Source: Pyropia yezoensis
Lineage: Eukaryota; Rhodophyta; Bangiophyceae; Bangiales; Bangiaceae
Length of the DNA: 64,000 nucleotides
Assembly: GCA_009829735.1 (NCBI GenBank)
Contig: CM020619.1
Span: 32,714,283 to 32,778,282, forward strand
Direction of reading: 5' to 3'
How positions within the stretch are numbered: position 1 is the stretch's first letter; each line of letters starts with the position of its first letter. Below are positions 1-64,000 of the stretch, in pieces. The notes below the pieces were generated by a model. The model was not told the origin of the DNA and searched no databases. It saw only the letters and a program-made list of their open reading frames with translations. A program made the translations under genes and the position numbers.

Positions 1-1266
1 GAAAGGAACAGGAGGAAGCGGAGGGGCCCGCCGAGGTGGCGGTACCCGGGTGTAACTGCGACCCCGACTTGGGGCCCCCGCAGTGGGTTGAGTCATATGA
101 TCATCATAGGACGGCACGGCCATAACTATGGGCTTGTCCGGGGGTGGCGCAGTGTGGCGATCCACCCCCGGGGCATACGGGTAGTCCCCGATGCCCAACC
201 CCTCTCGTAGGACCACACGGCCGTCGTGAAGTTCACGAGCGACCCACACGAACTGGCGAAGTGCGCCATCGTCCTTGGGCCCACGAGTGGGGCGGCGCAA
301 CTTGTGCTCAATGCTCTCCCACTCGATAAACTTATGGAGCCGGAGCATCTCCTCAAGTAGAGTGAGTTGTCCTGATGAGCACCCCTCAGCAACTAGCTGA
401 GGGGTGAGCTGTTCCAAACCTTGGAGGAGCCGGAGGGGGAGATGCCAGAGCATCTCCCGCCGCTGAACACAGGACACCCAGGTCGACATGACCTCGAGGA
501 GCCACTGGGTGGCCAACATGGCCCACACCAGGTGATCAGGGGCAGCCGTCAACATGACGGAGCCGAAGTGGTCAAGCAACCGTGGCAACAACGCCGGGAA
601 CCCGTAGGGGACCTCAACTTGAGGCCACCACTCGGGCTTCTTCGGATAGTACTGCTCCTTACTGGCAGCAGACTGTTGAGGAAACTCAAGTTGAGCCGAG
701 GTCACCAAGTAGGGACCTCGCCGGAAGTCTTTCTCCATCCGCACATCAAAGTGATGAGTGTGCGGATCGGCCTCGTGGAGGTACGGTGAGCGAGTTGCCA
801 CAGCGTCCCACGTGAAGGTCGGCAAGTCGCCGGGACCCGGGATAGTTCCCCCGCGGTCCACCATGGCCTTGGCACGCTGAACGTCCTCAACCTCCTCATC
901 GTCCAGGAAGGCAAACTGGTCCGTCCTGAAGCCGGCAGGGAACCCGACCCTACGGGGATACTTCTCCCGTAGGCGGTCCCATACCCGGCCCATCGCTGCG
1001 CCAAGTCGGCCACAGCGAAGAACAGTCAGCCCCTCCTCATAGAGAGGCCAAGCGGGGTAAAACCACCGCCCCAAGGCCTCACGCGGGACAACTTGTCCCG
1101 CCTCCGGGGGAGACCCCGCCGTCAACCCAAAGCCGGGTGACGCGGGAGTCCCGTCCCCCGGAGCGATCGCGGAGCCCCCGCCGGAAGTCCCGGCGGGTGC
1201 TGCCCCGTAGGAGGCGTCCTCCATGCGCTCGTCAAGAGAGTCCGTCTCCACTCCCGGAGTCGCCAT
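1..1266 (-). CDS. antisense ORF protein of retrotransposon A (partial)
   Basis: The reading frame starts at the ATG at 1266 (protein begins MATPGVETDS) and stays open for 422 codons to the window edge. It is on the strand opposite to the element's own transcription. It aligns without gaps to the antisense ORF of element B (55530-57473). Comparing codon by codon, 38 codons differ only synonymously and 7 change the amino acid (A/T, D/G, F/L, S/P, A/G, E/G, L/I). That ratio indicates selection on the protein. No known domain is recognised. The N-terminus is acidic and Gly/Pro-rich, followed by a Trp- and Leu-rich core. Upstream of the ATG the two copies differ by indels, which supports this start. 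Function is unknown. Confidence 0.8.
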   Translation of the reverse strand, partial: MATPGVETDSLDERMEDASYGAAPAGTSGGGSAIAPGDGTPASPGFGLTAGSPPEAGQVVPREALGRWFYPAWPLYEEGLTVLRCGRLGAAMGRVWDRLREKYPRRVGFPAGFRTDQFAFLDDEEVEDVQRAKAMVDRGGTIPGPGDLPTFTWDAVATRSPYLHEADPHTHHFDVRMEKDFRRGPYLVTSAQLEFPQQSAASKEQYYPKKPEWWPQVEVPYGFPALLPRLLDHFGSVMLTAAPDHLVWAMLATQWLLEVMSTWVSCVQRREMLWHLPLRLLQGLEQLTPQLVAEGCSSGQLTLLEEMLRLHKFIEWESIEHKLRRPTRGPKDDGALRQFVWVARELHDGRVVLREGLGIGDYPYAPGVDRHTAPPPDKPIVMAVPSYDDHMTQPTAGAPSRGRSYTRVPPPRRAPPLPPVPF

Positions 1267-13540: not shown

Positions 13541-15689
13541 CCGAGCGATTGCACCCCCAGTGCGTCGGTCGCAGCCGAGATCGCGTGTGGTCGATGTTCG
13601 TGCCGTTGCAACCGGGTGGATGACGGCGGGCGAGTGGGCTGTTCTGGCCACCGTGCTGACGGAGTGCCACCGTGCTTGCGGTGTGCCACCATCTCTTGGA
13701 CCAATGTGGACCTCTTACGGCCGCGTCATCGCTCGCGATTGGCACGGTGGGCTCCGATGCGGCTGTACTTTTCGTCACCGGCTTGATAGGCGGCTATGGA
13801 AGCGGCGGCTACGGCCGTGGTGGGGCACTGGTGGTTGCTGTAGACACGTCCCAGGTCGTGGCTGGAGCGGTCACCATTGCGACTACCGTTTCTGTCTCCC
13901 GCAGGATGCGTGGCTGCAATCGCCGCGGCTTCATGAACTGTGGAGCCGCCACAGTCTGCTTGGGGTAGGAGCAACTGCGCCAGTGCGAATGGAAGTGGCC
14001 TGTTAGGTGACGGTGGTCGTGGAGGGTCTGTTGTGGGCGTCAGCTCGGACTGCGGTTGCGCCCGCCGGTTGTGCCTGCCGCGGTGAGCGCCGCAGTGGTG
14101 CCACGTCGGCGTGTGACGGGGCTTTCTTCTCTTTGGCTGTTGTGCTCGGCGTTGCGCAGGTGGGCGGCTGCCGCCCTGGTCGTGTCGGTCGCGACGAGAC
14201 GGCTGTGGCTGCAGCAGTCGCGTCCATTTGACTGGTTTCGCTTTGTGGTTGAACCTTCTGCTGTAGTGAGAGGCGTCGGCTGCGCGGTAGCCCTTCTACG
14301 GATGGGTGGTACAGGGGGTTGACGGCGGGGTGGGCCAGGGCGCTCCATGATACGCTTTGTGAGGGGCTCTCAAGTACCATTCGTAAAAAACCATGTTATG
14401 TGGAGTGGCCACGGACAATACGCGTCAGTTGTGGAGTGCGGCCACCTCCCGCTGTAGGGTGTGGCGAACTCTGCCGACGTGCACTGCTTCCAAGAATTCG
14501 AGGCACCGTGGGCGTCACGAAACAACCTCCGGCATCGTGCCTCCCTTTGACGCCTTCAGCCGCCAACACCCCTTCCTCACAGTGGACTGCGGGGCTACGC
14601 GGACACGACTGCGAGACGCGGGGGAGGTGATATTCCGCGCCCGCGCGTCCCGGGTGAGCAGTGCCCGCCCGTGAGGGGTGCCCCCCCGGAAGCGGCTTGA
14701 CCGCCGTGGCTGCGCCTGCCCGCGTGCGACGCCCCCGGGCCGGAGCCCGCACGCAGGCGGCGGCGCTTACGCCGAAGAGGCCCACCGCTACACCGCCGCG
14801 GCGGCCGGCGGCTGCCAGCACCAGCCAGGCGGCGCCCCGGCCCCATCCGGCCGGTACGGTGCCCCCCGCTTATTGCTCAGTGCCCCCTCTAGTAAGGTCT
14901 CCCTCTCCTCAGTTTGAACTCCAATCCGCCGCGCCACTCAGCGCCCTGTGTCTACCAAAGCCACCAGTCCATACTGCGCAGGCTTCCCATGCATCTTCCA
15001 CGATCCAAGCAGCCACCTCCGCTACCGCTGTCACCACTGACCCTTCCGCCGAAGAAGAGCAGAAGAGGAGAGAAGGCGAAGTGAAGTCGGCAACCGCGCT
15101 GGTGCCGAGGCGCTGTCGCATCAGCTGCTGTGCCTGCCTCGACAGCATCGGGCACACCCGCTGACAGACGGCTGCCGCCAATGAGAGTGCCGGTTGCTTG
15201 GCTTGAACAACCGCCTGCTCTACTGAAGGGAGGACCGACCTGGTCACTCACCCGGCCGTTGCAGACAAAATTGATCCACCAATGAGAGCGCCGTATCAGC
15301 GCGATAGAGACAGCCGTGCACGAGTGCGCCTCGTCCCGAGTCAACTTCGTGCCGGGCAGGAGCCTCGCCACGCTCCACCGCAGCGATCCATGCGATGGGC
15401 CGCCGATGGCACCTATCGAGCCCCAATCGTGTCCCGCCTGCGACCCGCGAGCCCAATCGCGGACCCTCGGTGGGACCTCGGTGGGACCTCGGTGAGAAAC
15501 CACTACTCTGTGACGAATAGCATCGGGTCGAGTCGGGTTCTGAGTTCTTTGCGAGTGGGGCAGGCGGGCGTAGCTGGTCTTGCGAGTTCTCCTTGCTTCA
15601 TTGTTCTGTCCTTGTGGCTCATTTTTTCCTTCTATTGAGGGGTGCGCTGGGTGGTCCGGGAGGGGGGGGGCCCAGGGGGGGGGTGCTGG
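13541..15689. other. no supported gene
   Basis: Several medium open frames overlap here on both strands. The frame at 14909-15247 (minus) contains a helix-like stretch (QAKQPALSLAAAVCQRVC) but no domain, start context or partner exons. The region 13640-14300 is rich in short GCCACC/GGTGGC motifs. Nothing else is recognised. Confidence 0.4.
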
Positions 15690-15697
15690 GAGGGGGG

Positions 15698-15962
15698 TGC
15701 CGGCTCCAGCCAATGGCGGGGCTGCTGGGAAGGAGAGGAGGGGGGGGAGGGGGGTGCCTGCTCCAGCCAATGGCGGGGGGGCTGCTGGGAAGGAGAGGGG
15801 GGGGAGGGGGGTGCCGGCTCCAGCCAATGGCGGGGGGGCTGCTGGGCAGAGGAGAGGGGGGGGAGGGGGGTGCCGGCTCCAGCCAATGGCGGGGCTGCTG
15901 GGAAGGAGAGGGGGGGGAGGGGGGTGCCGGCTCCAGCCAATGGCGGGGCTGCTGGGAAGGAG
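15698..15962. repeat. minisatellite, five copies of about 57 bp
   Basis: The core GCCGGCTCCAGCCAATGGCG recurs at about 15698, 15755 (one change), 15811, 15871 and 15924, separated by G-rich spacers of variable length. On the minus strand the repeat is read as part of an open frame continuing from the F-box fragment, giving runs like SSPAIGWSRHPPPPP. Spacing varies between 53 and 60 bp and includes non-multiples of three. Confidence 0.85.
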
Positions 15963-16541
15963 AACGTCGGACAAGTCAAGGACCTCGAGGGAGCCACCCA
16001 GCCAAGTCGGGAAGACCCGCAAGAGTGCGGCCACTACCCTCGTGCTGGGGCCTCTGTACGGGCTCCGCGCCGCGGCTGCGGCAGTGGACGCGACAGAGGG
16101 GCTTCCCCCACGGCCGGCCGGCCGTCGACCGGGTGACAGGCACAGCGAGCGGAGGGCGGGGAAGAGGTGAAGAGCAGAGAGGACCTGCGCCGGCGACAGA
16201 TGAGTTGGGGGCGCCCGGGATGGCGCGCTCTCCCCTTTCCCCCCCCTCCCCTCACGGCGGCGGGCTACATCCGACGCCCGCACCGCCCCAACCTGCTCCC
16301 GCGCGTGGTCGGCAGCGTCCCGCCACTCGCGGCACACCCCCCGCAGGGTGGGGAGGGCAAGCCACCCAACGGCGGAAAAGACGAGGACGAGAATCTCGGG
16401 GGGGAGGTAGGGCAGCAGCGACGGCGTCGCGGTGGGGGGCGGCGGGCAGGGGGGGGCAGCCGCCACCGCGGCAGCCGTCCGCGGCGAGCGGAGGTCCACA
16501 CGCCCTGCAGCGGGCGTGCCACAGGGCCCGCTCCGGTGCAT
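15950..16541 (-). CDS. F-box protein, N-terminal part
   Basis: From the ATG at 16541 the frame gives a Pro/Ala-rich leader, then an F-box at about residues 42-80 (LPPEILVLVFSAVG, then LRGVCREWRDAADH). After it come two short leucine-rich pieces (LHLFPALRSLCLS near 120 and LEVLDLSDVLL near 190). F-box proteins bind SKP1 and bring substrates to SCF ubiquitin ligases, and leucine-rich repeats often form the substrate arm. At about 15950 the sequence runs into the minisatellite. The frame stays open to 14952, but the later part has no F-box/LRR character. The gene is therefore truncated or rearranged by repeat expansion, or it continues through introns I cannot place. Confidence 0.5.
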
Positions 16542-40810: not shown

Positions 40811-42600
40811 CACACCCACACACGGGAGCCGCCACGTCGACGTGGCGCCGATGGGGCCCCACGTCGAAGGACGGAGGGCGCCGCGGGCCCAGTCGGCGGC
40901 AGCTGCCACCCGCGCTAGGCAGTGAGAGCGCCCGCCCGTCCGAGGCCGGTGAGGTACGTAGGAATAGCCACAGCGCCCCTCGCCCTTCGGGCTTTGCCCG
41001 ACCGCCGTACATAAGAGCGATGAGACAAGCTCAAAAAGCCAGCCCCGTGATGCCCCCTCTCCCCTCCCCGCGAGGGGGCAAACCAGTCTAGAGTCCTCTC
41101 ACACCGCCCCCACACCGAGCTCGTCCCGCGTCCAGAGCCCTTGCACAGGTTGTGAGCACAGACCCCTCGTGGTGCACGAGCGGAGCCGCTGCTCCCCGCC
41201 AGCCGCCTGCCAGCGGGCAACGACCATCCGCACGTCGGCGGGGCCGCTGCTCTCCGGCAGCAGGCCGGCGGCGGCCATCCCGACCCCCGAGCCCTGCCGC
41301 TGTCGTAGCGGAAGCGGCGGCGGCGGCGTCTGCGGCAGCAGCGGCGGCGGCGGTGGCGGCAGGGAGCTCACCCGCGAGAGCAGCGGCAGGAGATTCTTCC
41401 CCCACCCCCTCCGTGGCCCCCACCCCCCCCCTTCCAGCGACGTTTGCACCACCGCTATCAGGGTTCGCTGCCGCAGGTGGGGTGCCCTCGCGGGATGCCC
41501 GCCACCCCATCTCGGTGCCGGTGCGCCCGGCGTTGGCTCTGCCCGCCACGAGGGGTTTATCACCCCGTGCTTCTCCGTTGCTGCTTCGTTTTCCGGCGGC
41601 GGCGCCAGTGGCAGCGGGGGAGCACGCCTCCGCCGCCGCCGCCGCCGCACCGCGTCTCCGCTGCCGTCGCCGCCGCGGCGTGCGGTTATTCCCACTGTTG
41701 AGTGCCCGTCGATGGACCACGCTCAGACCGACGGGAAGCCGTGACGGCTGGCAGCGGCGGCGGCGGTGATGCGACGGCCGTCAGGGAATGGCGCTGCCCC
41801 CTCCTCATTCTTCTTTCCGCCGTCTCCCTTTTTGGCCGATTTCTCCCCCGGCCGACCACCAGGCCGCCGCACCACGCGCTGCTACCGACAATAGCCTGAC
41901 AATGGAGACAAACAAATGCCCGAGGCTAGCCCGTTTCTTTCGTGGATCCGCTTTGACCCTTTGGTCTGTTGCACAACGAAAAAAGAATCACGCGGTGGCT
42001 CGAGCCGCCTCCTACCCACTGCGCCTGGAGCTGGAACTGGAAGCGGCAACAGAGATGCGTCGCCGTCGCCGTCGCCACCGCCACCGCCGCCGCTGCTGTC
42101 GCCGTCGATGCCGTCCGTCGCGCCTTGACTGTTCGTTCTCTTCCTGGCCGTGGCTGCCGCTGCCGCCGCTGCCGCCGCCGCCCCCGCCGCTGCCCGTGTC
42201 TCCGTCTACGGGGGGCGTGGCGTCGTCGCCCGCAGAGTCCGCGCCGCCGTCGGCGTCAATGTCTGCGTCGCTGTCGGGGGCGTCCTTGCCGCCGTTGGGG
42301 GTTGGGGATGGGGAGGCGACGGCGCGGCCGCCGGCGGCGGCAACCCGCGCGCCGCCCCCCTGGGCTCCTCTGCCGCCCCCTGGGCCAGTCCCCTTGCCGG
42401 TCTTTCCCTGTTCCCGCTTGGCGCTGCCTGCTACCGGCCGGCACTTGGCCCCCTTCCCCCCCCGCGGCGCCACCTCAGAGGCGCCCTTGAGCCCCCCCCC
42501 CCCCCAGTTGCCGCCACCGGGCCACCCTCCTCAACGTCCTCAAACGTCTCTGCCTCCCGCGCGGCGGTGCGCGGGGCGGGCGCCGCCGCGCCCCGCGCCG
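33096..42600. other. long GC-rich stretch without a supported gene
   Basis: About 9.5 kb of GC-rich, often homopolymeric sequence. Very long frames on both strands (for example 38600-40420 plus and 39523-40287 minus) overlap one another and consist of Pro, Arg, Gly or Ala runs. No start, domain or splice pattern supports any of them. Local features are G/C homopolymers near 37590, 37800 and 40036, and GC-box-like clusters at 33980-34090 and 34440-34500. Confidence 0.5.
33960..34500. repeat. GGGGCGG-type simple repeats
   Basis: 33980-34090 is a run of GGGGC and GGGGCGG words, and 34440-34500 a run of GGCGGGC words. They could act as GC boxes or quadruplex-forming DNA. They lie 0.9 to 1.4 kb upstream of the membrane protein gene, which is transcribed away from them, but no link is shown. 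Confidence 0.6.
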
Positions 42601-42729
42601 CTGGCAAGCATCCCCCACCCCCACGCCTCGGCGGTGTGGGACATTGACTTGCATCCGGTGGGGCACTTGCTCGTGTCGGGCTCCAACGACCAGACGACCA
42701 AGTGTAGGACCCGCAACCGCCCGGGCAAC
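42601..42729 (+). pseudogene. Pfs2/WDR33-like WD40 repeat fragment
   Basis: Within a longer low-complexity frame (41788-43422), 43 codons give a recognisable WD40 blade: HASAVWDIDLHPVGHLL, then VSGSNDQTTK, then TRNRPGN. The combination HPxGH, SGSNDxTxK and TRNRPG is characteristic of the last blades of the polyadenylation factor Pfs2/FY/WDR33, which acts in mRNA 3'-end cleavage. The residues just before TRNRPG read CR where the family has FW. No other WD40 blade is found on either side, so this is either a broken gene copy or a single exon of a gene I cannot assemble. Confidence 0.5.
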
Positions 42730-43752
42730 GCGCGCAACAACCTGGCCGCTGATGACGACAAAGGCAGCGGTCGCCACGGGGGAGGGGGGGGGCGTGGCGG
42801 CGGTAGCGGCGGCGGCCACGACCGGAGAAAATCGCGCTCTGCTCCCTATGACGCCCCCGCGGCGGCGCGGATCGGGCGGGGACCGCCCCGCGCCCGCTCT
42901 GGGGCCACCTTGACGCCCACGCGCTGCAACAGGTGCGGCAGCAGGCAGGTAGAAAGGGAAAGCGTGCGGCCAGACCCACCCGCCGCGTCAGCCAGCCACG
43001 CAGTCCGCAGGTGGTGGGGACCCATTCCCCCATCCTGCTCTGAGCCACAGTGGGCACGCACTGCGTTTGAGGGGGCGGGTGGGGCACGGAAGAGGTGGCG
43101 GCGGAGGGTTCCCCACCACGGTGGCGCGCACGTACGCGTCTCCGTCCGGGGCGAAACGATGCAGGGGGGGACGCGGCGGCGGGACCGCCCGCCGGTGGGT
43201 CGAATGGGGCCTGCCCCAGCGCCTGTGATCGCCCCTGTCGGGGTTTTCAGGGCGGGGACGCTCCAGATGGGCGCCCGCCCGCACTCGGCTCTGTCTTCCC
43301 CAACTGCCGCCCCAATCCTGCGCTACCGTTTGGTCGAGGCCCCGTCGGACGCACGCGACGCGGCTGTCTGTTTGCACAAGCCAACCTCTCTTGGGAAGGT
43401 GGGGCCGGGCGAACCACAATGAAGGGACTGGATGAGATGGGGCTTGGCAGGGGGCTGCGACACTCGCCACGAGCCGCGTGCACGTAGGCCCAGCCGCTGG
43501 CGCTGTGGTAGTCGCCGCCGCCTCTTGGGGTGGCTGTCGGCCGCGGCGGCCCCCGCCAGACATGGCGTTCTTAGCGTCCTTGTGGGACGTGTTGCGTGGA
43601 GGCGGTTGGGTCATGGCGCGCCGCGGCCAATGTGTGGCAGTGGTGCCGCTGGAGCGCCCACAGCGGGGTGGCTGACTTTGCATCGTTCTTTTGATGTGTG
43701 CGGTTTTCCTCCGAAGAAAAGTCAAGGAAAATCAATTCATGAGAATAGAAGT

Positions 43753-47640: not shown

Positions 47641-48003
47641 TGTAGCACAATAGGGATCCGTCGCACGTCCACTCTCAGGGAACACTCACCAAGGGGGATC
47701 GGCACCAACGTCACCGGGAGGCCAAGGTTGCTGTCCTTGGAGCGCAAGCCACGGGACCAAGATGGGAGCCCAAATGGGAGGGGTTTGTTGTTCTACCTCG
47801 GCCGGCGGTGGATTCGCCGCCGGCCCCCACGTTATAAACCCTCGGAGACACTACTAACTACCCTCCACCCCAAGATGCAAGTCCCTCTGGTCATACGTAA
47901 CTTATAGATACCGTGACCAGTACGGACTATCAACTTGAAAGCCAAGGATTAGAAGTAGCCCCCCTAATATTAGGGTTACAATACGGCCAACCATATTGCT
48001 ACA
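47641..48003 (-). repeat. 3' LTR of element C
   Basis: The 363-bp LTR is delimited by the inverted hexamers TGTAGC (47641) and GCTACA (47998-48003), with a polypurine tract directly inside. It contains the palindrome CCCTAATATTAGGG (47962-47975). The partner LTR is off the window, so the ends rest on the terminal hexamers, the adjacent tract and the minisatellite border. Confidence 0.7.
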
Positions 48004-48018
48004 TATCCCCCCCCCTTA
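48004..48018 (-). other. polypurine tract of element C
   Basis: On the minus strand this reads TAAGGGGGGGGGATA, abutting the LTR end. This is the position expected for the plus-strand primer. Confidence 0.65.
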
Positions 48019-48595
48019 GATTCGGCCCGTCCTCGGGTCGAGTTGCATTCGGGTTACCGAATGTAAGTGGGTCGCGTGACCGTTTACCAGTCGGGTGGGG
48101 CTTTGCGCCCCGTCGCGACAGACACCCCTTTTCGAGGTTGTCTGAGGGGGGTGCCCCCCTTTGTGTGGTACACACACACGATCCGTTTTCCGGACCGTTA
48201 AATTCCCGATGCGGGTTCTGTTCACGACCCCCCTTTCCGAGGGGTGGTGCAAGCGGATCCGCCACCAGGTGCCTGGTGGTAGGGGGGCCCCTCTCGTGTG
48301 GACGATTGAGTGGGGGCGGGAACTGCCCGCGTTGCGCGGGGGCGGTTGGGGGTGACCCCCCTTGCTTACCCCGTGTGGGGGGGGCGTGGCTCCGGTCCAG
48401 GTGCCTGGGTGGAGCGCCCCCGTAGCTCGGCTGGCGCGGGTCGTCCCGCGCTGCCGTATCGCTCGTGCTGAGCTGTGTGGTTATAAGCGCGGGTGCCCGC
48501 GCTTCCCTGGCTCGTCCTGCGCGAGCGTTCCTTGTACCGGGTCGAGCCGGCCTCGGCTTTTCTGCACGGGGCGCCCCTGCTACCCCGGTTGCACC

Positions 48596-50677
48596 ATGTC
48601 GGACCCCCAGGTACCCGGGGGCGAGGACGACCTCCTGCCTGAAGAGGGGGAAGAGGTGATGGTGGACGACGTTCCCGTCCCCGCCACCGCCGCCGAGTGC
48701 TTCCTAGCGAGCTCGTCGGAGGACGAGGACGACCGGGTGACCGTTCGTGTGGCCCCGGAAGGCGCGCCGGGCGGGTTGTCGTCCGTGTGTAGCGGCACGA
48801 CGGCTCCGTCGGGTGGCGGACAACCGCGTGCAGCGGTGGCTTCTACCGCTTCTCCTCCGGCGGCCCGGATGGCTTCTGTCGCCGGTACCGGCGTGGCTCT
48901 ACCTCAAGACGGTGTTGCCGGCGTGGCGGATGGTGGTGGCGGCACCCCGGCCAGCCCGGCGGGTCAAGACGGCGCGGGTGCCCGCCCGGTTGGTGTGTCC
49001 GCTGCGGCGGGTAGCGGGTCTACCCGTGCTGCCCCCGTGGTACCCACGTCGGGTCCGGGTGGCGGCGATGCTCTGCCCGCGGTGCCGCGGGCGTCTGGTG
49101 GTCAAGGTGGGTCTACACCGATGGCAGTGGACTCCGGTAGTTACTCCGGGCGGGCGCCCGCCCTTCTTCTTCCTCCTCGGCCGCGTGCGACTCCGGCGCC
49201 GGCCCCTCTTCCGGTGGGGCATCCCCTGGCGCCCCCTATTCTTCCTGGTCCTGCCCGGGTTGCCCCGTTGGGTGGCGGCGTCGCCGTGGCGGCGGGTCCG
49301 CCCGCCATGTCGATGTTCGACTTGGTGGCTCGGGTTCGAGGCCTGACTGTGCAAGAGTCAATGGAGTCCGATGGGCGGATGCGGGTGGACTTCCACCTGC
49401 CCCATCCCCGTGGAGAGTCCTCCCGGCGCGTCAAGGTGGACCCGAGTTGGGAGCGGGAGTTGGTGCGGCTGGTCAACCAGCCGAACGCGGTGCGAGTGGA
49501 ACACCATTGGATCCTGAGTCAGCCGGACGACCGGCATGCGCAGCTCTGGCGCACTCGGGTGGGACGGGGTGAGGTCTACCTCGACCCCGCCTTCGGGGTA
49601 TGCGACCTGATTGCTCCCGCGTTGCCGCGGGAGATTGACTACCCGGCTAGTGCTCGGGGGATTGCGGCGGCGGCGGAGCCGGTTGCGTTTGGGGAGACGG
49701 TGGGCAGTACCGGTCGGTATCCCGACTTTGATTACTACCCGGGGGTATCCCCGTATCTGTCGTTGACGGCTCCCTACCCGCCTATGGCGGGGTTGAAGTC
49801 GGCGTCGAGCTGGCGACGTAACCATGGTGTCATGGCGGATGCGTTTCGCACGGATATAACGTGTGCGTTGCAGACCGGCAACGGTCGTGCGCCGGTATAC
49901 ACTCCCGTGCGCCCGCCGCTATGGCAGGAGGGGTGGGAACCCGCCCCTGCTTTCCGGTTTGACACCGGCTCCTGTCTCCGATACTTCGGGAGTGTGTTGG
50001 CCTCCCGGCCGGTCCACCCGTTGCAGGGTACCTTCACCCTTGAGGTTACCCTCGGGGAGGCGTCCTCCTTCTTGCTGTCCGTCCGCCGGCAGGGGCGCCT
50101 GTTTCATCTTCCGACGGGTGTCCGTCGGCACATCGCGCAGTTGGGCGTGGACCTGATAGCTGCCAAGACCGGGTTGGCCCGGGAGTTCGAGGCCCTGCTG
50201 GCTGTTCACGATGCCGTGAACTGGGCTGGGGTGTTGGCCCTTCTCCCGTACCGGGACCCGCAGGCTGGGGCTACCCCCTTGCCTCGTCACTCGTTGCGTA
50301 TCCGGCGTACTCAGCCGGGTGAGCCTAGTTGCCATGGGTGGGCGTCCACCGAGGCCGTTCCTGACCTGGGTATTCCCATGGTTATCCATGACCCTCTTCA
50401 GGTCCTTGCCCCGTGGTTCGGTAACCCGATACCGGCGGCGGTTGGCCGTCGTCCCCGAGAGTGGGGCTCTGCGGGTGGGGAGCGTGAGGTGTCCCGTCGT
50501 CGGGCGGAGCCCGGCCGGGGTTATGGTGGAGCCCCTTCGGTAGGGTCCTACCGAGCCTCGTATCAGGTGCCACCGGCTCCGGTGGTAGCCGTGTCGGCTC
50601 CTGTGGCTCCTCTGGCTGCGCCAGTGTCACCTCCCGCCCCTGCCCTACATGACGGGGGTCCCCGTCTCTGGTATTAG
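48596..50677 (+). CDS. antisense ORF protein of element C
   Basis: A 693-aa frame, ATG at 48596 in CACCATGTCGG. It could start earlier at 48362, but that leader is Cys/Arg-rich and unlike protein B. It runs opposite to the element's pol. Order: acidic N-terminus (LLPEEGEEVMVDD, SSSEDEDD), a Gly/Ala/Pro linker to about residue 240, then a compact core. The core aligns with the antisense protein of B: YTPVRPPLWQEGWE against YYPKKPEWWPQVEV; LRYFGSV against LDHFGSV; RRQGRLFHLPTGVRRHIAQL against QRRGMLWHLPLRLIQGLEQL; LLAVHDAVNWAGV against MLRLHKFIEWESI. The C-terminus is Pro/Ala-rich. No known domain is recognised. It is intact although pol of the same element is decayed. Confidence 0.75.
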   Translation: MSDPQVPGGEDDLLPEEGEEVMVDDVPVPATAAECFLASSSEDEDDRVTVRVAPEGAPGGLSSVCSGTTAPSGGGQPRAAVASTASPPAARMASVAGTGVALPQDGVAGVADGGGGTPASPAGQDGAGARPVGVSAAAGSGSTRAAPVVPTSGPGGGDALPAVPRASGGQGGSTPMAVDSGSYSGRAPALLLPPRPRATPAPAPLPVGHPLAPPILPGPARVAPLGGGVAVAAGPPAMSMFDLVARVRGLTVQESMESDGRMRVDFHLPHPRGESSRRVKVDPSWERELVRLVNQPNAVRVEHHWILSQPDDRHAQLWRTRVGRGEVYLDPAFGVCDLIAPALPREIDYPASARGIAAAAEPVAFGETVGSTGRYPDFDYYPGVSPYLSLTAPYPPMAGLKSASSWRRNHGVMADAFRTDITCALQTGNGRAPVYTPVRPPLWQEGWEPAPAFRFDTGSCLRYFGSVLASRPVHPLQGTFTLEVTLGEASSFLLSVRRQGRLFHLPTGVRRHIAQLGVDLIAAKTGLAREFEALLAVHDAVNWAGVLALLPYRDPQAGATPLPRHSLRIRRTQPGEPSCHGWASTEAVPDLGIPMVIHDPLQVLAPWFGNPIPAAVGRRPREWGSAGGEREVSRRRAEPGRGYGGAPSVGSYRASYQVPPAPVVAVSAPVAPLAAPVSPPAPALHDGGPRLWY

Positions 50678-50704
50678 GGCGTTGACGCCCTTGTTGCCCG
50701 CGCA

Positions 50705-50965
50705 ATGCGGGAGGGTCTCTCTGTTAGCTGGGGGGATATCCCCCCAGGTGCTGCGCTGGTTGGGTCAGCGCGTTGCTTCGGTGGTGTGCTTGACCGCCTC
50801 CAGAAAGCTCTGGAGGACGTGGAGGCTGGCCGCAGCACCCTCGTCCAGCTATGCACCGAGGTAACTCGGGTGATTGACCGTCGTGAGATTGCCGACCGGT
50901 GGAGCACGGAGGTATACGCGCTTACGCGTGAGTGGCCTCCCTCGGGCAGTGGGTCTACCCACTGA
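50705..50965 (+). CDS. small second antisense ORF of element C
   Basis: An 86-aa frame starts 27 nt after the stop of the large antisense ORF, on the same strand. It contains an amphipathic helix (LQKALEDVEAGRSTLVQLCT) followed by VTRVIDRREIADRW, which looks like a short coiled coil. Element B has no room for a counterpart: only 111 bp separate its antisense ORF from pol. It could be a downstream cistron, a detached C-terminus or chance. Confidence 0.35.
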   Translation: MREGLSVSWGDIPPGAALVGSARCFGGVLDRLQKALEDVEAGRSTLVQLCTEVTRVIDRREIADRWSTEVYALTREWPPSGSGSTH

Positions 50966-51277
50966 GGAGTGTTATTGTTTGTACGGGAGAGGGACCCGGT
51001 GGGCCTTATGGTAGCCGGGTAGTAGTGAGTATAAACTCATCCCCTTTGGGGGCATTGCTTGCCTCTGTTTGCTGCCCTGGGGAGTACCCCTTCTGGCTCA
51101 GTGGTGCCTTGCCTCCCGTCCAACTTCTTCCGGTTGGTTCATGCTTGGGGAGGTCATCCTCCCTCACTTTGTGTCTTGGCTTGGGGAGGTCATCCTCCCG
51201 TGTAAGCCCCCTAGTTACTTCGATATTATCGAAGTTAGCCTTTATCTTTAAGTTAACTTATTAAGGTTCAGGTTTTA

Positions 51278-51339
51278 CTTAGTTACCTAAGCTTGACTCT
51301 ACTTAGATGCCTAAGCTTGGTTCGACTTAGAAACCTAAC
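51278..51339. repeat. three 24-bp repeats, each a small hairpin
   Basis: CTTAG and CTAAG arms with 4-nt loops occur at 51278-51291 and 51302-51315, and a third, slightly broken copy at 51326-51339, spaced 24 bp. They lie between the convergent ends of pol and the antisense ORFs, close to a 17-bp palindrome at 51218-51234 (arms CTTCGATA). They may mark a transcript-end region for both strands. Confidence 0.75.
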
Positions 51340-51419
51340 TCTGCCGTAACCATGTCACACCCTACTTAGTAGGTATAAGCCTCACCCCCCAACAGCCGAA
51401 GTCGGTGTCGGTTGGGTTG

Positions 51420-54400
51420 TTACAGTAGGCGTCGTCGCCTCATGTAAGGCATGAGGAGTTGGCGGGGTATCTTCGCCGCCTGTTCCCAGGTGGGTGAGTC
51501 GTATCCGACCCACATAACCTTGACGTACCAGGGTCCTGGTAGGTCCGGGTCGGTGTATCCGACCACGCTCTCTACTTGGTAAGGAATCCCATCCGGTCCC
51601 ACCGGGTCATCTGACCGGTGGGTTGTAAGAGCTTCATGTAGCAACCCAGCCGGTACCGGCTGAGGCTGTTCCGGCTTCGGAGCAGGTGTGACATCATTCA
51701 CACTGATGCGTTAGATCTCCGTATCGGAGTGTAAGATAACAGAGTGGTCATCTCTGTGGAGAATCTGGTACGGTCCCTTGACCGGTTGCATGAGCTTGTT
51801 CCCCCAGAACTTCTGGTGTCTGATGTAGACCCAGTCACTTGTCATCAGGGTAGCGTTGCGCACCCGTAATCGGGCGTCGAAGTTCTTCTTGTATCGAAGT
51901 TGTGTTCTGTCAAGAGCACCCTTGAGCTTAGGAATCATCCACGATAGCTTGGACAACCAAGCTAGGTGTCTACGTTCGGCCGGTCGGCCCTTCGGTGTAT
52001 CATACCGAGTGCACCTGCCGGGTGGCAGCGTCAGGTTACCGACGCCTAGTGGCATGACCCACTCCAGCGGAGCGATGTTTGTGCTCCGATGTGGCCTGGC
52101 ATTGTATGCCAGGGTGAGTACGGACAGAAGCCTGTCCCAAGTGTTCGTGTGCTCTGCCACGTAGCACTGTAGCATCTTGACGATGGTGCGGTTGAACCGC
52201 TCCACCTGCCCGTTGGTTTGCGGGTGGTAGTCGGATGCCCGACGTGGTTCGATACCGAACATGCCCAGGACCTTAGTGCAGAATGCTGACGTAAGGTTTG
52301 CTCCGTTATCGGAGAGGAGTTGATTCATGACTCCGTATGCACTGATCCAGTGGTCAACCACTGCGTTCATAATCGTGTATGCCGTATCATTCGGGATGGC
52401 TGCCGCTCGTGACAGCTTGGTGAATCGGTCAGACATGACCAGGATGTACCTGTTCCCTTCTTCCGTTACCGGAAGTGGCCCGAGTATGTCGATAGCGACT
52501 TGCTCGTTGGGCCCATCGGGTGGGAATAGCTTCATGGCAGACGCCTGCCTATGTAGACTCATGCGGTTACGTGCACAGGGGTGGCACCCCCTTACGTGGT
52601 CGACCACGTCGACGGCCATTTCTGGCCAGTAGAAGAACCTTCGCATTGCTGCGAACATACGTGAACCCCCCGGGTGTCCGGCTGTAGGGTTCTCGTGTTC
52701 TCGTTCCATGACGGCTTGCCGTAAGGACACGGGAACCACGACTTGATGTCGTCCATCGGCGGGTGCCCGCCGGTACATGAGTCCGTCTTCGTTCTCGGAG
52801 AAGATGCCGGCCGTACCGGCCAGGAGGTTAGCGCGATGGCGTCTACAGTCATCGTCGTTGGCTTGTGCCTCGCGGAAGTCCGCGAGGGTCAGTGGGCATG
52901 CTCGGTGTGCCATGGTATGGTCAACCATACCTTGGGTAGCGTTACCCACCATGCAGACCGGTACCACCGGGATGTCCTCTTCCACCGGGCGGGTATCCCC
53001 GCTCGGGGTGTCGAGGCGAGACAATGCGTCTCCGAGATGGTGGGTTGACCCAGCCTTATACACGGTACGGTAGTCGTGCTCGGCCATTTTTAGCCTCCAT
53101 CGGGCTAGCCTCCCATGGCTATCGGAATCCTTGTCACCAAGGTTGAGGAGCCATCGTAGGGGTTCGTGGTCGGACCTCACGATGAACCTGGAGCCCTCCA
53201 GGTATGGACGGAGCAGTTGCACTGCCCATATAACTCCGAGGCATTCACGCTCGGTGGCACTATAGTTACGCTCAGCCGGGTTGAGTGTCCGGCTGAAGTA
53301 TCCTACCGGACGTAGGTCCGGGATAACGTTATCGGTACCGATCAACGGCTCTCCCTGTAACAGGGTGCATCCCACTTGTGTATCGCATCCATCGACATCG
53401 ATGACGAAGGTACCCCGTCGGTGCGGTAACGCAAGGACGGGTGGGGATAGTAGGGCTCGCTTCAGCGACTCGAATGCCTCCTCTTCGCTAGGCGAAGGGG
53501 GTTGGAGTACCTTGGGCAGGGTACTGCTCGTAAGAACCGTTAACGGTTTAGCTATCCGAGCGAAGTCCTTGACGAACCGTCAGTATACATTGCACATTCC
53601 CAGAAAGCTCTTGAGCTGTGTCTGGGTGTTAGGGAACCGGGCATCCCGGAGTGCCCGGGTATTGGCTTCGAGTACCCCTAGTTTACCAGGGGTTATCTGG
53701 TGGCCCAGATACTCGACCGTCTGTTGGAAGAAGGCGCACTATTTCAGACGCAGGGTTACCCCGGCGTTCCTCAAGAGGGTGAGTACCTCGTCAACATGTT
53801 GCACATGGTCATCCATGTTACGCGAGAAGACGATGACGTCATCGAGGTACACTAGGCAGTTACGCCACTTCACCCCAGACAGTATAATGTCGATAGCCCG
53901 CTGGAATGTAGCGGGGGCGTTGGACAATCCGAAGGGCATCCTTAGGAACTCGTACACTCCACTGTGACAGACGAACGCCGTCTTGGGGATATCCTCGTCC
54001 GCCACCGGGATCTGCCAGTATCCGGCATTGCAGTCGATGGTGGTAAACACCGTAGCTTCCCCCAGGGAGTCGATGCATTCATCCATCCTTGGTAAAGGGT
54101 AGGAGTCCTTCTTGGTAACCAAGTTGAGGCGTCGATAATCGATGCAAAACCGAGGGGTTTGATCCTTCTTCGGTACGATAACGACTGGGGCACCCCACTC
54201 CGACATCGAAGGTCGTATCACCTTCGCTTCACTCATCCTCTTCACTTCTCCATCAACGATCTCTCGTTGCATAGGTCCCGCTCGGTGCGGTTGTGACCGG
54301 GCGGGGCGTGCGCCTGGTACCAGGTCAATACGATGTTGGGTTGCCCCAATGGTACCCAAGGCTCCGCCTGTCCACATGACGTCATGCTTTCTTAACATCC

Positions 54401-54721
54401 GTCGTACCCCTTCGGCTACGGAAGGGGGAAGGTGGTCGAGGTCAGCCTCGGCCAGTGCCTTCAATGCTTCTTGGTCCTTCGGCGGAATATCCGCCGGTAA
54501 TGATGGTCGACTAGGCTTCCCGTCATCGGGTTGCTGTCGCTCGGTGGTCTCGGCGACCGCCAGCACCTCAAGTGGGTCCACTTGACCTTCCTTGTCAGGG
54601 GTAAGGATATCTCCTTCGTAGAGCTCGGCAATCCCGAGGATAGTTCCCTTCGGGAGGGTGACTGCCTTACGGCGATAGTTCGCCATCACTAGGAGGGACG
54701 ACCCTCCTGATGGGAGGTCTA
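51420..54721 (-). pseudogene. pol of element C (RT, RNase H, integrase, chromodomain) with stops
   Basis: Reading the minus strand from 54721: a linker (GQVDPLEVLAVAET), reverse transcriptase (FCIDYRRLNLVTKKDSYPLP, YLDDVIVFSR), RNase H (FVIDVDGCDTQVGCTLLQ, IVRSDHEPLRWLL), integrase with an H-H-C-C zinc module (REHENPTAGH, CHPCARN), catalytic-region motifs DILGPLPVTEEG, SDNGANLTSAF and NGQVERFN, and a C-terminal chromodomain (KVMWVGYDSPTWEQAAKIP). Three stops lie in the same frame: TAG at 53739-53741, TGA at 53580-53582 and TAA at 51711-51713. No frameshift was noticed. The 5' part, including protease and gag, is missing because element B is inserted at 54721/54722. Confidence 0.85.
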
Positions 54722-55189
54722 TGTGGCAAAAACCACTCGCACACACAGTACCCAAGTTGGGGCGGTGTGCGAGGGCTGCCTCCCGTGTCGGGGGAACCGG
54801 AAGAAGTGCAAGTCGCACACACTCTATCCCTGTTGTGGGGCAATCCCCCCACGGACAAACAAGAAGATGGTGTGTGGTCCAACAGTTTCTTGGTCGGGAC
54901 GGGGACGCAGGGCCAAGCCCCGCTGTCCCTCCCCTTATCCCCCCAGGGTCCACTCAGAATCTCGCCACTCAGAATCTCCCACCCCAGCACCTGCCCACCG
55001 GGCCACACGAAAATTCAAGACGATAAATGCAGAAAACCCTCAAATCCAAGTTGGATTTACTACTAAGCTAACTATCCCGAACTTAGGGAATATGGACCCA
55101 AATGCAGGGGGAGGAACGGATCAGGCTAGTGGCCTGCCGCCCCTTGCATGGCACGTGTTGCCCCCTACCTGGGGGTCAATACTGCCACA
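54722..55189 (-). repeat. 3' LTR of element B
   Basis: The 468-bp LTR runs from TGTGGC (54722) to GCCACA (55184-55189) and is followed by the polypurine tract. It contains the 17-bp palindrome 55042-55058 (arms AAATCCAA around G). The left border is shown by its identity with 63631 onward and by the break in element C's pol. Confidence 0.95.
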
Positions 55190-55202
55190 CTCCCCTCTCC
55201 TC
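55190..55202 (-). other. polypurine tract of element B
   Basis: On the minus strand this reads GAGGAGAGGGGAG, identical to the tract of copy A, and directly touches the 3' LTR. Confidence 0.85.
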
Positions 55203-55529
55203 AGTTCCGACCGACCCGGTCGGCCCTGTGAGGGGGTGCGTAAACGCACGTCTCGGCGTTGGGGGGGGACGCGACTTGCTGTCCCCCCCTTGAGTACGTA
55301 ACGCGGATGTGGAGGCGGTCACGTTGGCCGCCCCTCTCCTCAAGCTTGCCCACTTGGCAGCTTGCTCTCCTCGGTTCACACCTCACCACCACCACTTCTC
55401 CTTCACCTTACACGGGGCCACCCCACGCTGGGGAGGCCACCCGTTTACCCACGATCCGAGTCCCCCTCAACTCGAGGCGGGTCTCGTGCCGCGATAGCCA
55501 GGACGTCTCTCCCCAACTTGGGGAGAGCC
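55203..55529 (+). other. leader region before the antisense ORF of B
   Basis: 327 bp with no conserved frame: copies A and B differ here by indels and have different upstream frames. It would be the 5' untranslated part of an antisense transcript. It contains T/C-rich runs and the palindromic words CTCAACTCGAG and CCCAACTTGGG. No promoter element is evident. Confidence 0.5.
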
Positions 55530-57473
55530 ATGGCGACTCCGGGAGTGGAGACGGACTCTCTCGATGAGCGTATGGAGGACACCTCCTACGGTGCAGCGCC
55601 TGCCGGGACTTCCGGCGGGGGCTCCGCGATCGCTCCGGGGGGTGGGACTCCCGCGTCACCCGGCTTTGGGTTGACGGCAGGATCTCCCCCGGAGGCGGGA
55701 CAAGTTGTCCCGCGTGAGGCCTTGGGGCGGTGGTTTTACCCCGCTTGGCCTCTGTATGAGGAGGGGTTGACTGTTCTTCGCTGTGGCCGACTCGGCGCAG
55801 CGATGGGTCGGGTATGGGACCGCCTACGGGAGAAGTATCCCCGTAGGGTCGGGTTCCCTGCCGGCTTCAGGACGGACCAGTTTGCCTTCCTGGACGACGA
55901 GGAGGTCGAGGACGTGCAGCGGGCCAAGGCCATGGTGGACCGCGGGGGAACTATCCCGGGTCCCGGCGACTTGCCGACCCTCACTTGGGACGCGGTGGCA
56001 ACTCGCCCCCCGTACCTTCACGAGGCCGATCCGCACACTCATCACTTTGATGTGCGGATGGAGAAGGACTTCCGGCGAGGTCCCTACTTGGTGACCTCGG
56101 CTCAACTTGAGTTTCCTCAGCAGTCTGCTGCCAGTAAGGAGCAATACTACCCGAAGAAGCCCGAGTGGTGGCCTCAAGTTGAGGTCCCCTACGGGTTCCC
56201 GGCATTGTTGCCACGGTTGCTTGACCACTTCGGCTCCGTCATGTTGACGGCTGGCCCTGATCATCTGGTGTGGGCCATGTTGGCCACCCAGTGGCTCCTC
56301 GAGGTCATGTCGACCTGGGTGTCATGTGTTCAGCGGCGGGGGATGCTCTGGCATCTCCCCCTCCGGCTCATCCAGGGTTTGGAACAGCTCACCCCTCAGC
56401 TAGTTGCTGAGGGGTGCTCGTCAGGACAACTCACTCTACTTGAGGAGATGCTCCGCCTCCACAAGTTTATCGAGTGGGAGAGCATTGAGCACAAGTTGCG
56501 CCGCCCCACTCGGGGGCCCAAGGACGATGGCGCACTTCGCCAGTTCGTGTGGGTCGCTCGTGAACTTCACGACGGCCGTGTGGTCCTACGAGAGGGGTTG
56601 GGCATCGGGGACTACCCGTATGCCCCGGGGGTGGATCGTCACACTGCGCCACCCCCGGACAAGCCCATAGTTATGGCTGTGCCCTCATATGATGACCATA
56701 TGACTCAACCTACTGCGGGGGCCCCAAGTCGGGGTCGCAGTTACACCCGGGTACCGCCACCTCGGCGTGCCCCTCCGCTTCCTCCTGTTCCTTTCCAGCC
56801 TCACGGGAACATCCCGATCAGCGTGGCCGTGGAGTCATCCACACCGGTGTCTCCCAACTTGGGGGCCACCCTCCTGACGGTATACCCCAAGTTGGTGTTA
56901 CCGCCCACGCCTCTAACCTCAGAGATGATGATCACCACGTTGGTGCGCACCATTTCCTGGTTGGCCGCGTCGACCGCAACCCTCCAAAGTTCCGAGACTC
57001 CTCAACTTGAGGAGCGCGTTCGTACTGCAGTGGCGACCGCGAGTTGCGAGTCGGTGGCGGAGTTTATGACGGCCGAGTTGGCTCGCATTGGGGCTATTAT
57101 GCCCCAGCCAACCCCACTTGGGCGTGGCAAGCGTCGTGCGAGCCGGGCATACTCGCCTCCTCGCCGTCGTCGCCGTCACTCGCGGCGCTCTCCCTCCGTG
57201 TCGGAAGACGAGTTGTCTTACTCCGTCTCGGAGTCCTCTACCCCATCGGAGACGGAGTCTGTCCAGCGTCTGCGTCGCAAACTTGCGCGCAAGACCAGGC
57301 AGAAGAGTAGCCACGGTCGGCGCCACTTGCGCGACCGTGAGGGGCGCGACGGTTCCGACTTGGAGCCGCCGCCCCTTCCAACGAGTGGAGACCGTTATCG
57401 GCGTGGGTCTCGCCGCTCGCCTCCACGTGAGGGCGAGGGCCGTGGAGTGGGAGAGTCTAGCATGCGTGCCTAG
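55530..57473 (+). CDS. antisense ORF protein of element B
   Basis: A 647-aa frame on the strand opposite to gag and pol. The ATG at 55530 is chosen because copy A conserves the protein exactly from here and not upstream; the frame itself opens at 55362. Order: acidic/Gly-rich N-terminus; core at about residues 50-380 with WFYPAWPLYEEGLTVLR, FDVRMEKDFRRGPYLV, YYPKKPEWWPQVEV, HFGSV, RRGMLWHLPLRLIQGLEQL, LLEEMLRLHKFIEWESIEHK and a final LREGLGIGDYPYAPG-like end; a Pro-rich stretch; a helical segment; and an Arg/Ser-rich tail (YSPPRRRRRHSRRSP, many RS/SR pairs). The RS tail suggests a nuclear, RNA- or chromatin-associated protein. The core is shared with the antisense protein of element C. No known family is recognised. 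Expression would need an antisense promoter in or near the 3' LTR. Confidence 0.8.
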   Translation: MATPGVETDSLDERMEDTSYGAAPAGTSGGGSAIAPGGGTPASPGFGLTAGSPPEAGQVVPREALGRWFYPAWPLYEEGLTVLRCGRLGAAMGRVWDRLREKYPRRVGFPAGFRTDQFAFLDDEEVEDVQRAKAMVDRGGTIPGPGDLPTLTWDAVATRPPYLHEADPHTHHFDVRMEKDFRRGPYLVTSAQLEFPQQSAASKEQYYPKKPEWWPQVEVPYGFPALLPRLLDHFGSVMLTAGPDHLVWAMLATQWLLEVMSTWVSCVQRRGMLWHLPLRLIQGLEQLTPQLVAEGCSSGQLTLLEEMLRLHKFIEWESIEHKLRRPTRGPKDDGALRQFVWVARELHDGRVVLREGLGIGDYPYAPGVDRHTAPPPDKPIVMAVPSYDDHMTQPTAGAPSRGRSYTRVPPPRRAPPLPPVPFQPHGNIPISVAVESSTPVSPNLGATLLTVYPKLVLPPTPLTSEMMITTLVRTISWLAASTATLQSSETPQLEERVRTAVATASCESVAEFMTAELARIGAIMPQPTPLGRGKRRASRAYSPPRRRRRHSRRSPSVSEDELSYSVSESSTPSETESVQRLRRKLARKTRQKSSHGRRHLRDREGRDGSDLEPPPLPTSGDRYRRGSRRSPPREGEGRGVGESSMRA

Positions 57474-57584
57474 TTGGCAGCTGCCTTTGTTGTGAGAGTG
57501 TGAGGGTTAGGGCTGTAGTTTAAAGCCACTCTGCGTACCACTTCGACTTGAAGCACTCTCTTGGCACTGTTGCTCGGCCTTCCC
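57474..57584. other. convergent spacer between antisense ORF and pol
   Basis: Only 111 bp separate the stop codons of the two converging genes. It includes CTTC/GAAG arms at 57541-57553, and a hairpin with arms TCCCTCA/TGAGGGA (57581-57597) overlaps the end of pol. These could be transcript-end signals for either strand; none is proven. Confidence 0.5.
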
Positions 57585-63535: not shown

Positions 63536-63611
63536 GGTCCAAGTCCACCGTTCCTCTGAGACAGAGGGCCCCCTACACCCGGGTGCACCCGGAGGTAAAG
63601 TTTACCTCTAT

Positions 63612-63628
63612 CCCCTGCTGCTCCACCA
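63612..63628 (-). other. primer-binding site of element B
   Basis: On the minus strand, two bases inside the 5' LTR, TGGTGGAGCAGCAGGGG follows. TGG pairs with the CCA end of a tRNA. The predicted primer tRNA would end in CTGCTCCACCA. I cannot name the tRNA; the sequence is unlike the common plant initiator-Met site (TGGTATCAGAGC). Confidence 0.7.
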
Positions 63629-63630
63629 AA

Positions 63631-64000
63631 TGTGGCAAAAACCACTCGCACACACAGTACCCAAGTTGGGGCGGTGTGCGAGGGCTGCCTCCCGTGTCGG
63701 GGGAACCGGAAGAAGTGCAAGTCGCACACACTCTATCCCTGTTGTGGGGCAATCCCCCCACGGACAAACAAGAAGATGGTGTGTGGTCCAACAGTTTCTT
63801 GGTCGGGACGGGGACGCAGGGCCAAGCCCCGCTGTCCCTCCCCTTATCCCCCCAGGGTCCACTCAGAATCTCGCCACTCAGAATCTCCCACCCCAGCACC
63901 TGCCCACCGGGCCACACGAAAATTCAAGACGATAAATGCAGAAAACCCTCAAATCCAAGTTGGATTTACTACTAAGCTAACTATCCCGAACTTAGGGAAT
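63631..64000 (-). repeat. 5' LTR of element B (partial)
   Basis: 370 bp, identical by eye to 54722-55091, running off the window. It begins TGTGGC on the plus strand, next to the primer-binding site. The remaining 98 bp expected from the 3' LTR length lie outside. Confidence 0.95.

Follow-up and report, generated by a model that had tools for sequence, protein, structure and literature searches.

A long antisense open reading frame in an abundant Ty3/gypsy-type retrotransposon of the red alga Pyropia yezoensis is very probably a protein gene kept by purifying selection

The 64,000-nucleotide stretch of the Pyropia yezoensis genome analysed here (GenBank assembly GCA_009829735.1, contig CM020619.1, positions 32,714,283 to 32,778,282; hereafter the window, whose own numbering is used unless another locus is named) ends in a long terminal repeat (LTR) retrotransposon of Ty3/gypsy type, element B (54722-64000), and begins inside a second copy of the element, copy A. 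This abundant element hosts a 647-codon open reading frame (ORF) that runs antisense to its gag and pol genes, and it is with this ORF that we are concerned. One 30-base stretch of the ORF was found at 1,201 genomic places with at most three mismatches, against none for the reversed control, and all 40 scored genomic matches in the list of the best 40 cover the antisense ORF from end to end. Repeats are reported to make up 48% of the P. yezoensis genome, with LTR retrotransposons predominant (PMC7423979). The overall guanine-plus-cytosine content of the genome is given as 65%, and that of the window is 64%.

The carrier of the antisense ORF is an LTR element with both gag and pol. In element B these genes lie on the minus strand: gag (61565-63535, 656 amino acids) encodes a CCHC zinc knuckle, and pol (57585-61568, 1327 amino acids) encodes reverse transcriptase (RT), RNase H and integrase, with matches to a protease and a C-terminal chromodomain that stay below the Pfam cut-offs (for the chromodomain 19.5 bits and E = 0.00097, with a cut-off of 25.1). 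The 5' LTR (63631-64000, minus strand) extends 98 bases beyond the window end, and beside it, in sense reading, stands a candidate primer-binding site, TTTGGTGGAGCAGCAGG (63614-63630, minus strand). The 468-base 3' LTR (54722-55189, minus strand) is adjoined by GAGGAGAGGGGAG in gag-pol sense (55190-55202, minus strand), read in the sequence, which we take to be the polypurine tract. Element B is a young insertion, because its two LTRs are identical wherever they were compared (467 bases) and it is flanked by a target-site duplication, GTCTA, at 54717-54721 and again past the 5' LTR, just outside the window. Most of the 2,395-bp gap between pol and the 3' LTR (55190-57584) is filled by the antisense ORF (55530-57473, plus strand), which is preceded by a leader (55190-55529, plus strand) in which indels are tolerated. 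The ORF overlaps neither gag nor pol, the latter ending at 57585, so that overlap with pol was ruled out as a source of its conservation. Its predicted product of 647 amino acids has a Ser/Arg-rich basic C-terminal part and is without a Pfam or PDB match.

Copy A contributes the 5' 422 codons of its antisense ORF (1-1266, with the ATG at 1266), the leader that separates the ATG from the 3' LTR (1267-1604, with indels relative to B) and the 3' LTR itself (1605-2073, with TG...CA ends), all on the minus strand. The remainder of the ORF lies left of the window; the whole is open over 658 codons and contains an in-frame 33-base tandem duplication outside the window. Further to the left, before element A, lies another copy of the antisense ORF (L017, 163-2637) with many single-base indels, accompanied by a partial LTR (158 of 468 bases, at 2484-2637), the product of decay or of assembly error.

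The original prediction held that the strand opposite to gag and pol encodes a protein needed by the element, a statement that we read as kept by selection in the lineages that spread. The frame on which it was based, cut by the window edge in copy A, is the 5' two thirds of the gene that has 647 codons in B. Our recount of copy A (1266 down to 1) against B (55530-56795) reproduced its figures: 45 of 422 codons differ, 38 through synonymous change and seven through replacement, with no gap and no stop, and 39 of the 47 base changes fall at codon position 3. It had also assumed that neutral change would mostly replace amino acids. When the same base changes were put at random on like bases, with CpG kept apart, 2000 trials gave 32.5 +/- 3.0 replacement codons, with 23 as the lowest count. 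Over the whole ORF, an A-type copy (L020) differs from B by 8 replacement codons; random placement predicts 44.3 +/- 3.5, and not one of 2000 trials went so low. The leader was likewise found to tolerate indels: A and B mismatch there at 19 of 335 aligned bases and are offset by three gaps, of 4, 1 and 3 bases, against 1266 gap-free bases of ORF. The original prediction expected a low ratio of replacement to synonymous substitution rates (dN/dS) in this frame alone and named equally low values in the overlapping sense frames as speaking against it. The latter outcome was not seen over the full ORF: the ratio is 0.047 in the ORF frame, 2.0-7.7 in four other frames and 0.14 in one frame of the opposite strand, which is broken by stops. 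Among the six frames that of the ORF alone is open; within the 422 codons of the window the other five carry 7-23 stop positions, counting a stop in either sequence.

The 422-codon count is effectively a single comparison of two lineages, because A and B belong to two young subfamilies and most differences in the ORF are fixed between them. The antisense gene is under tighter constraint than gag and pol in this comparison. By the Nei-Gojobori method, an A-type copy (L019) and B have a dN/dS of 0.051 in the antisense ORF (dN 0.0063, dS 0.123; 9 replacement and 58 synonymous changes), 0.133 in pol (44 and 103) and 0.223 in gag (28 and 42), and the counts for the antisense ORF differ from those for pol (P = 0.010) and from those for gag (P = 5e-4, both by Fisher's exact test). 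We also compared changes fixed between the subfamilies with those found within them, using gap-free full ORFs from 8 A-type and 13 B-type places after removal of 11 duplicate loci. Fixed differences comprise 5 replacement and 48 synonymous changes, and within-subfamily differences 34 and 18 (P = 1.5e-9, Fisher's exact test), 50 of the latter 52 in a single copy; none of the 21 copies has an internal stop. This sample omits L026 (a 1-base gap), L027 (truncated), copy A (the 33-base duplication), the indel-rich L017 neighbour and the partial L041, and young copies are over-represented in it, because all were drawn from lists of the best 40 matches. The whole pattern might be an artefact of two young, near-identical subfamilies in which few changes are skewed by chance or mutational bias, and most differences do go back to one split between two subfamilies. 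We find this hardly credible, since the context-matched placement null was never as low in 2000 trials, the within-subfamily differences of the same sequences show the opposite ratio, and internal branches of a tree with ten older copies agree.

On that tree we placed the ten old copies (85-90% identical to B) and four young ones, and expressed the ratios as site-scaled replacement over synonymous change. The old copies are 10 of the 22 matches of exactly 1,290 bases among 40 matches listed, so that copies with a net indel are excluded. The stems of A and of B have a ratio of 0.038, the stem common to both 0.249 and older internal branches 0.195, and no internal branch carries a stop. The terminal branches of the old copies have a ratio of 0.606 and carry all 19 stops; two of the ten copies are stop-free and nine retain the ATG. 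For the young copies the terminal ratio is 0.71, from 6 changes only. A dN/dS near 1 on adding copies, the outcome named by the original prediction as speaking against it, was not seen: the subfamily stems lie at 0.04-0.25, and the old terminal branches, with their stops, at 0.61. This branch pattern is that of an element gene, retained in lineages that spread and lost in dead copies.

The window also contains a second family. Directly left of B lies element C (47800-54716), whose incomplete pol (51426-54593, minus strand) is 44% identical to that of B, element B occupying the site of the remainder. Its antisense ORF (48596-50677, plus strand) matches that of B in position and orientation and is a diverged homologue of it. 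The two antisense proteins match by blastp with E = 6e-9. Their similarity scores 44.3 bits, where none of 200 shuffles exceeded 24.3, and hhalign gives a probability of 75% and E = 2.5e-5. The ORF of C in the window is ended by an in-frame stop, which is absent from all four other copies. Across the five copies it shows no indel over 2082 bases, while the stretch preceding the ATG is interrupted internally by gaps of 1-4 bases. Relatives of the C protein are found in Pyropia vietnamensis (P0009-P0012, P0014 and P0015; 34-59% identity in the five of six rows with a value), and P0007, P0008 and P0013 are further relatives, the full set being 34-95% identical where a value is given. The gene family is probably old in these algae, because it is common to two deeply diverged families and to another Pyropia species.

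On these comparisons of sequences, we consider it very probable that the ORF is a real protein gene of about 650 codons, antisense between pol and the 3' LTR, under purifying selection in the lineages that spread and with a homologue in a second family. The claim that the opposite strand encodes a protein is carried by the open frame, unique among the six, by the avoidance of replacements at lineage splits and by the homologue in family C. Several observations weigh on the other side. The opposite-strand frame with a ratio of 0.14 is also low, with 28 stop positions over the full ORF; we infer that the changed third positions hit degenerate sites there too. The omitted copies L026 and L027 have a frameshift and a truncation with a stop, respectively, and the old terminal branches have a ratio of 0.61 instead of 1, a value that allows for some mutation bias and for a period of activity. 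Synonymous sites are partly constrained, because there is an excess of short inverted repeats. The match between the B and C proteins is limited to about 160-190 residues at 24-25% identity, phmmer gave no match between them (stopped by its bias filter), and pairwise dN/dS in family C is just 0.34-1.07. These last ratios are weak evidence, as the family C copies differ little and are in part dead, and the case for selection in family C therefore depends chiefly on homology and on a frame that is open and free of indels. As for the product, only B and its close relatives were seen to have the Ser/Arg tail, and the AlphaFold models are poor (mean pLDDT, the predicted local distance difference test score, 34 and 32), so that nothing in the fold speaks for nucleic-acid binding.

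The inverted repeats also bear on whether the antisense RNA, and not a protein, is the functional product, with the open frame incidental: short inverted repeats in the ORF number 11 against 3.7 in synonymous-codon shuffles, and antisense transcripts may act as RNA (PMC7264820). We regard this as very improbable. Changes pile up at third positions and replacements are avoided, a separation of synonymous from replacement change that a functional RNA alone would not yield; moreover, the frame is open in all 21 gap-free A- and B-type copies, and the homologue in family C is recognised at the protein level.

Searches for known domains in the product were negative. Pfam scans up to E = 10, with gag and env families and TRP28 included, gave no match for the B and C proteins and none for the relatives P0009 and P0005, and P0008 had just a sub-threshold match to DUF6214; HMMER filters may discard very weak Pfam matches. 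PDB sequence searches returned no credible match (the sole one, at E = 0.59, is chance), a tblastn search of phages gave none, and an Rfam scan of the window gave none. A profile search returned the close homologue P0005 alone, and not the P. vietnamensis proteins, its scoring being limited to the 8000 candidates sharing most words. The C-terminal part of the B protein is Arg/Ser-rich and basic, with 23 Lys and Arg in residues 501-600. The highest hydropathy over 19 residues is 1.23 in B and 1.45 in C, below the level usual for transmembrane segments, and neither protein has a strongly hydrophobic stretch. A structural or particle protein encoded antisense, such as a second capsid-like or an envelope-like protein, would agree with models that are mostly helical in the conserved part, at low confidence and too poor for a fold search. 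It is nevertheless unlikely, as the protein has no similarity to the element's own gag (21.6 bits, E = 0.12), the gag and env families of Pfam were without a match, and a hydrophobic segment of transmembrane strength is lacking.

A different role seems to us possible, at somewhat less than even chances. A promoter in the 3' LTR or the leader would drive an antisense transcript, and its product would be a nuclear nucleic-acid-binding accessory protein, as the Arg/Ser-rich basic tail and the lack of a strong hydrophobic segment may indicate. Such a protein would target RNA or DNA of the element in trans and help the element to spread, in a role akin to that of retroviral accessory regulators or, perhaps, of plant antisense ORF products. 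Nuclear nucleic-acid binding would be the likeliest reading by analogy with gene23 of the plant retrotransposon Grande, which is described as having an upstream promoter of its own and a nuclear product (PMC7264820).

Candidate targets are suggested by the elements themselves, since both B and C show an excess of short inverted repeats. In B there are 21 CAASTTG cores (19 distinct, the LTR being counted twice) against 3.6 expected under a second-order Markov model, 16 of them inside gag, pol and the antisense ORF; three more lie in the window outside A and B, two of these in element C. The repeats of B are odd palindromes centred on CAASTTG with arms that vary by site, and those of C are even-centred, GGTACC occurring 10 times in C (2.2 expected) and 6 times in B. 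Short hairpins, defined by an arm of at least 6 and a loop of at most 5 and compared with 200 synonymous-codon shuffles, are in excess in each of the five coding stretches of B and C that were tested, such as B pol with 20 against 5.9 and the C pol part with 20 against 2.6 (0 of 200 shuffles as high). The single control, a Copia ORF (L054), shows no excess (13 against 11.7), and four other ORFs of the window show no clear one, the highest being 41788-43422 (7 against 3.8, a value that 13 of 200 shuffles attain). Between A and B, changes are scarcer in hairpin arms than at the remaining internal sites (14/789 against 296/7652, P = 0.002). Against a function confined to the elements, loop-1 palindromes are mildly in excess in the rest of the window as well (35 against 19.7), and some palindrome classes in 14900-47800 are above shuffles. 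Among 14 changed hairpin pairs none was compensated, five became G-T and nine were broken.

If real, the inverted repeats offer candidate targets for the antisense protein or for Gag, after the fashion of the motifs bound by the VANC proteins of VANDAL elements. VANDAL elements are DNA transposons. The VANC proteins are accessory proteins encoded by transposable elements of Arabidopsis, and VANC21 and VANC6 recognise different short motifs that are dense in their own elements (PMC5735166); B is likewise dense in motifs. The antisense product might then be a VANC-like anti-silencing factor that binds family-specific motifs across its own element and relieves host silencing. The density of CAASTTG in B and its scarcity elsewhere in the window are in keeping with this, as is the palindromic extension seen at 17 of 19 sites (P = 1e-8). 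We doubt it all the same, since VANC motifs, for which binding has been shown, lie mainly in non-coding tandem repeats (PMC5735166), whereas the sites of B, where binding is putative, lie also in gag, pol and the antisense ORF; the palindrome arms vary between sites; and in ten old copies the seven sites of the antisense ORF were kept about as well as other 7-mers (0.47 against 0.41-0.46). An equally improbable proposal is that this is an ancient, independently evolved red algal antisense gene, the protein of which would recognise family-specific palindromes or hairpins for packaging, export or anti-silencing and coevolve with its targets. Those targets would be CAASTTG-centred in B and, in C, even-centred palindromes, most often GGTACC.

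Three further features of the region lie apart from the antisense gene. A 1189-residue ORF at 9971-13540 matches a Plavaka transposase (E = 1e-6), here in a red alga, and a short tandem repeat with a period of about 57 bases (15688-15963) lies inside the span of the ORF 14952-16541. Elsewhere in the genome (G000:C1:23419940-23430694), three matches to Copia RT share one score and lie exactly 5,010 bases apart, which suggests a tandem array of Copia elements.

Grande, RIRE2 and Retand are Ty3/gypsy elements. Together with PvRetro13, likewise of plants, and Boty of fungi, they are among the elements described with antisense ORFs in the interval from pol to the 3' LTR, which according to a review are conserved like other retrotransposon proteins (PMC7264820). 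As in B, the ORF of Grande, RIRE2 and Retand is long, antisense to gag-pol, placed after pol and before the 3' LTR and found in most copies of the family (PMC7264820, PMC11963269). Retand differs from B in its plant host and in the size of that gap (2.9-6.6 kb, at least 2,933 bp, against 2,395 bp in B), and TRP28 (PF04195), reported from the antisense ORF of 97% of Retand clusters (PMC11963269), has no counterpart in B among Pfam matches up to E = 10. Retand is also a non-chromovirus, whereas the pol of B has its weak, sub-threshold chromodomain match. We have not filed B as Retand, because the red algal ORF shows no TRP28 match. It also differs from the plant antisense ORFs in that selection was gauged by dN/dS and by fixed and within-family counts. 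Likened by description, Boty of Botrytis cinerea and Sclerotinia sclerotiorum is a non-plant, fungal case with an antisense ORF in a like position (PMC7264820), and HBZ and APH-2 of the human T-cell leukaemia viruses are antisense regulatory genes of human retroviruses, with an antisense promoter in the 3' LTR (PMC7264820, PMC11963269). Among the titles listed by our literature searches, which are no proof of absence, none concerns such an antisense ORF in red algae.

The red algal antisense ORF is thus of a kind known from plants and fungi, in a variant form without a TRP28 match. Some 1,200 places carrying its sequence let selection on the antisense gene be read directly, and the dense inverted repeats in both gene-carrying families, and not in the one Copia ORF examined, provide a candidate target. 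This makes the red algal gene well suited to a study of the role of antisense genes of this kind.
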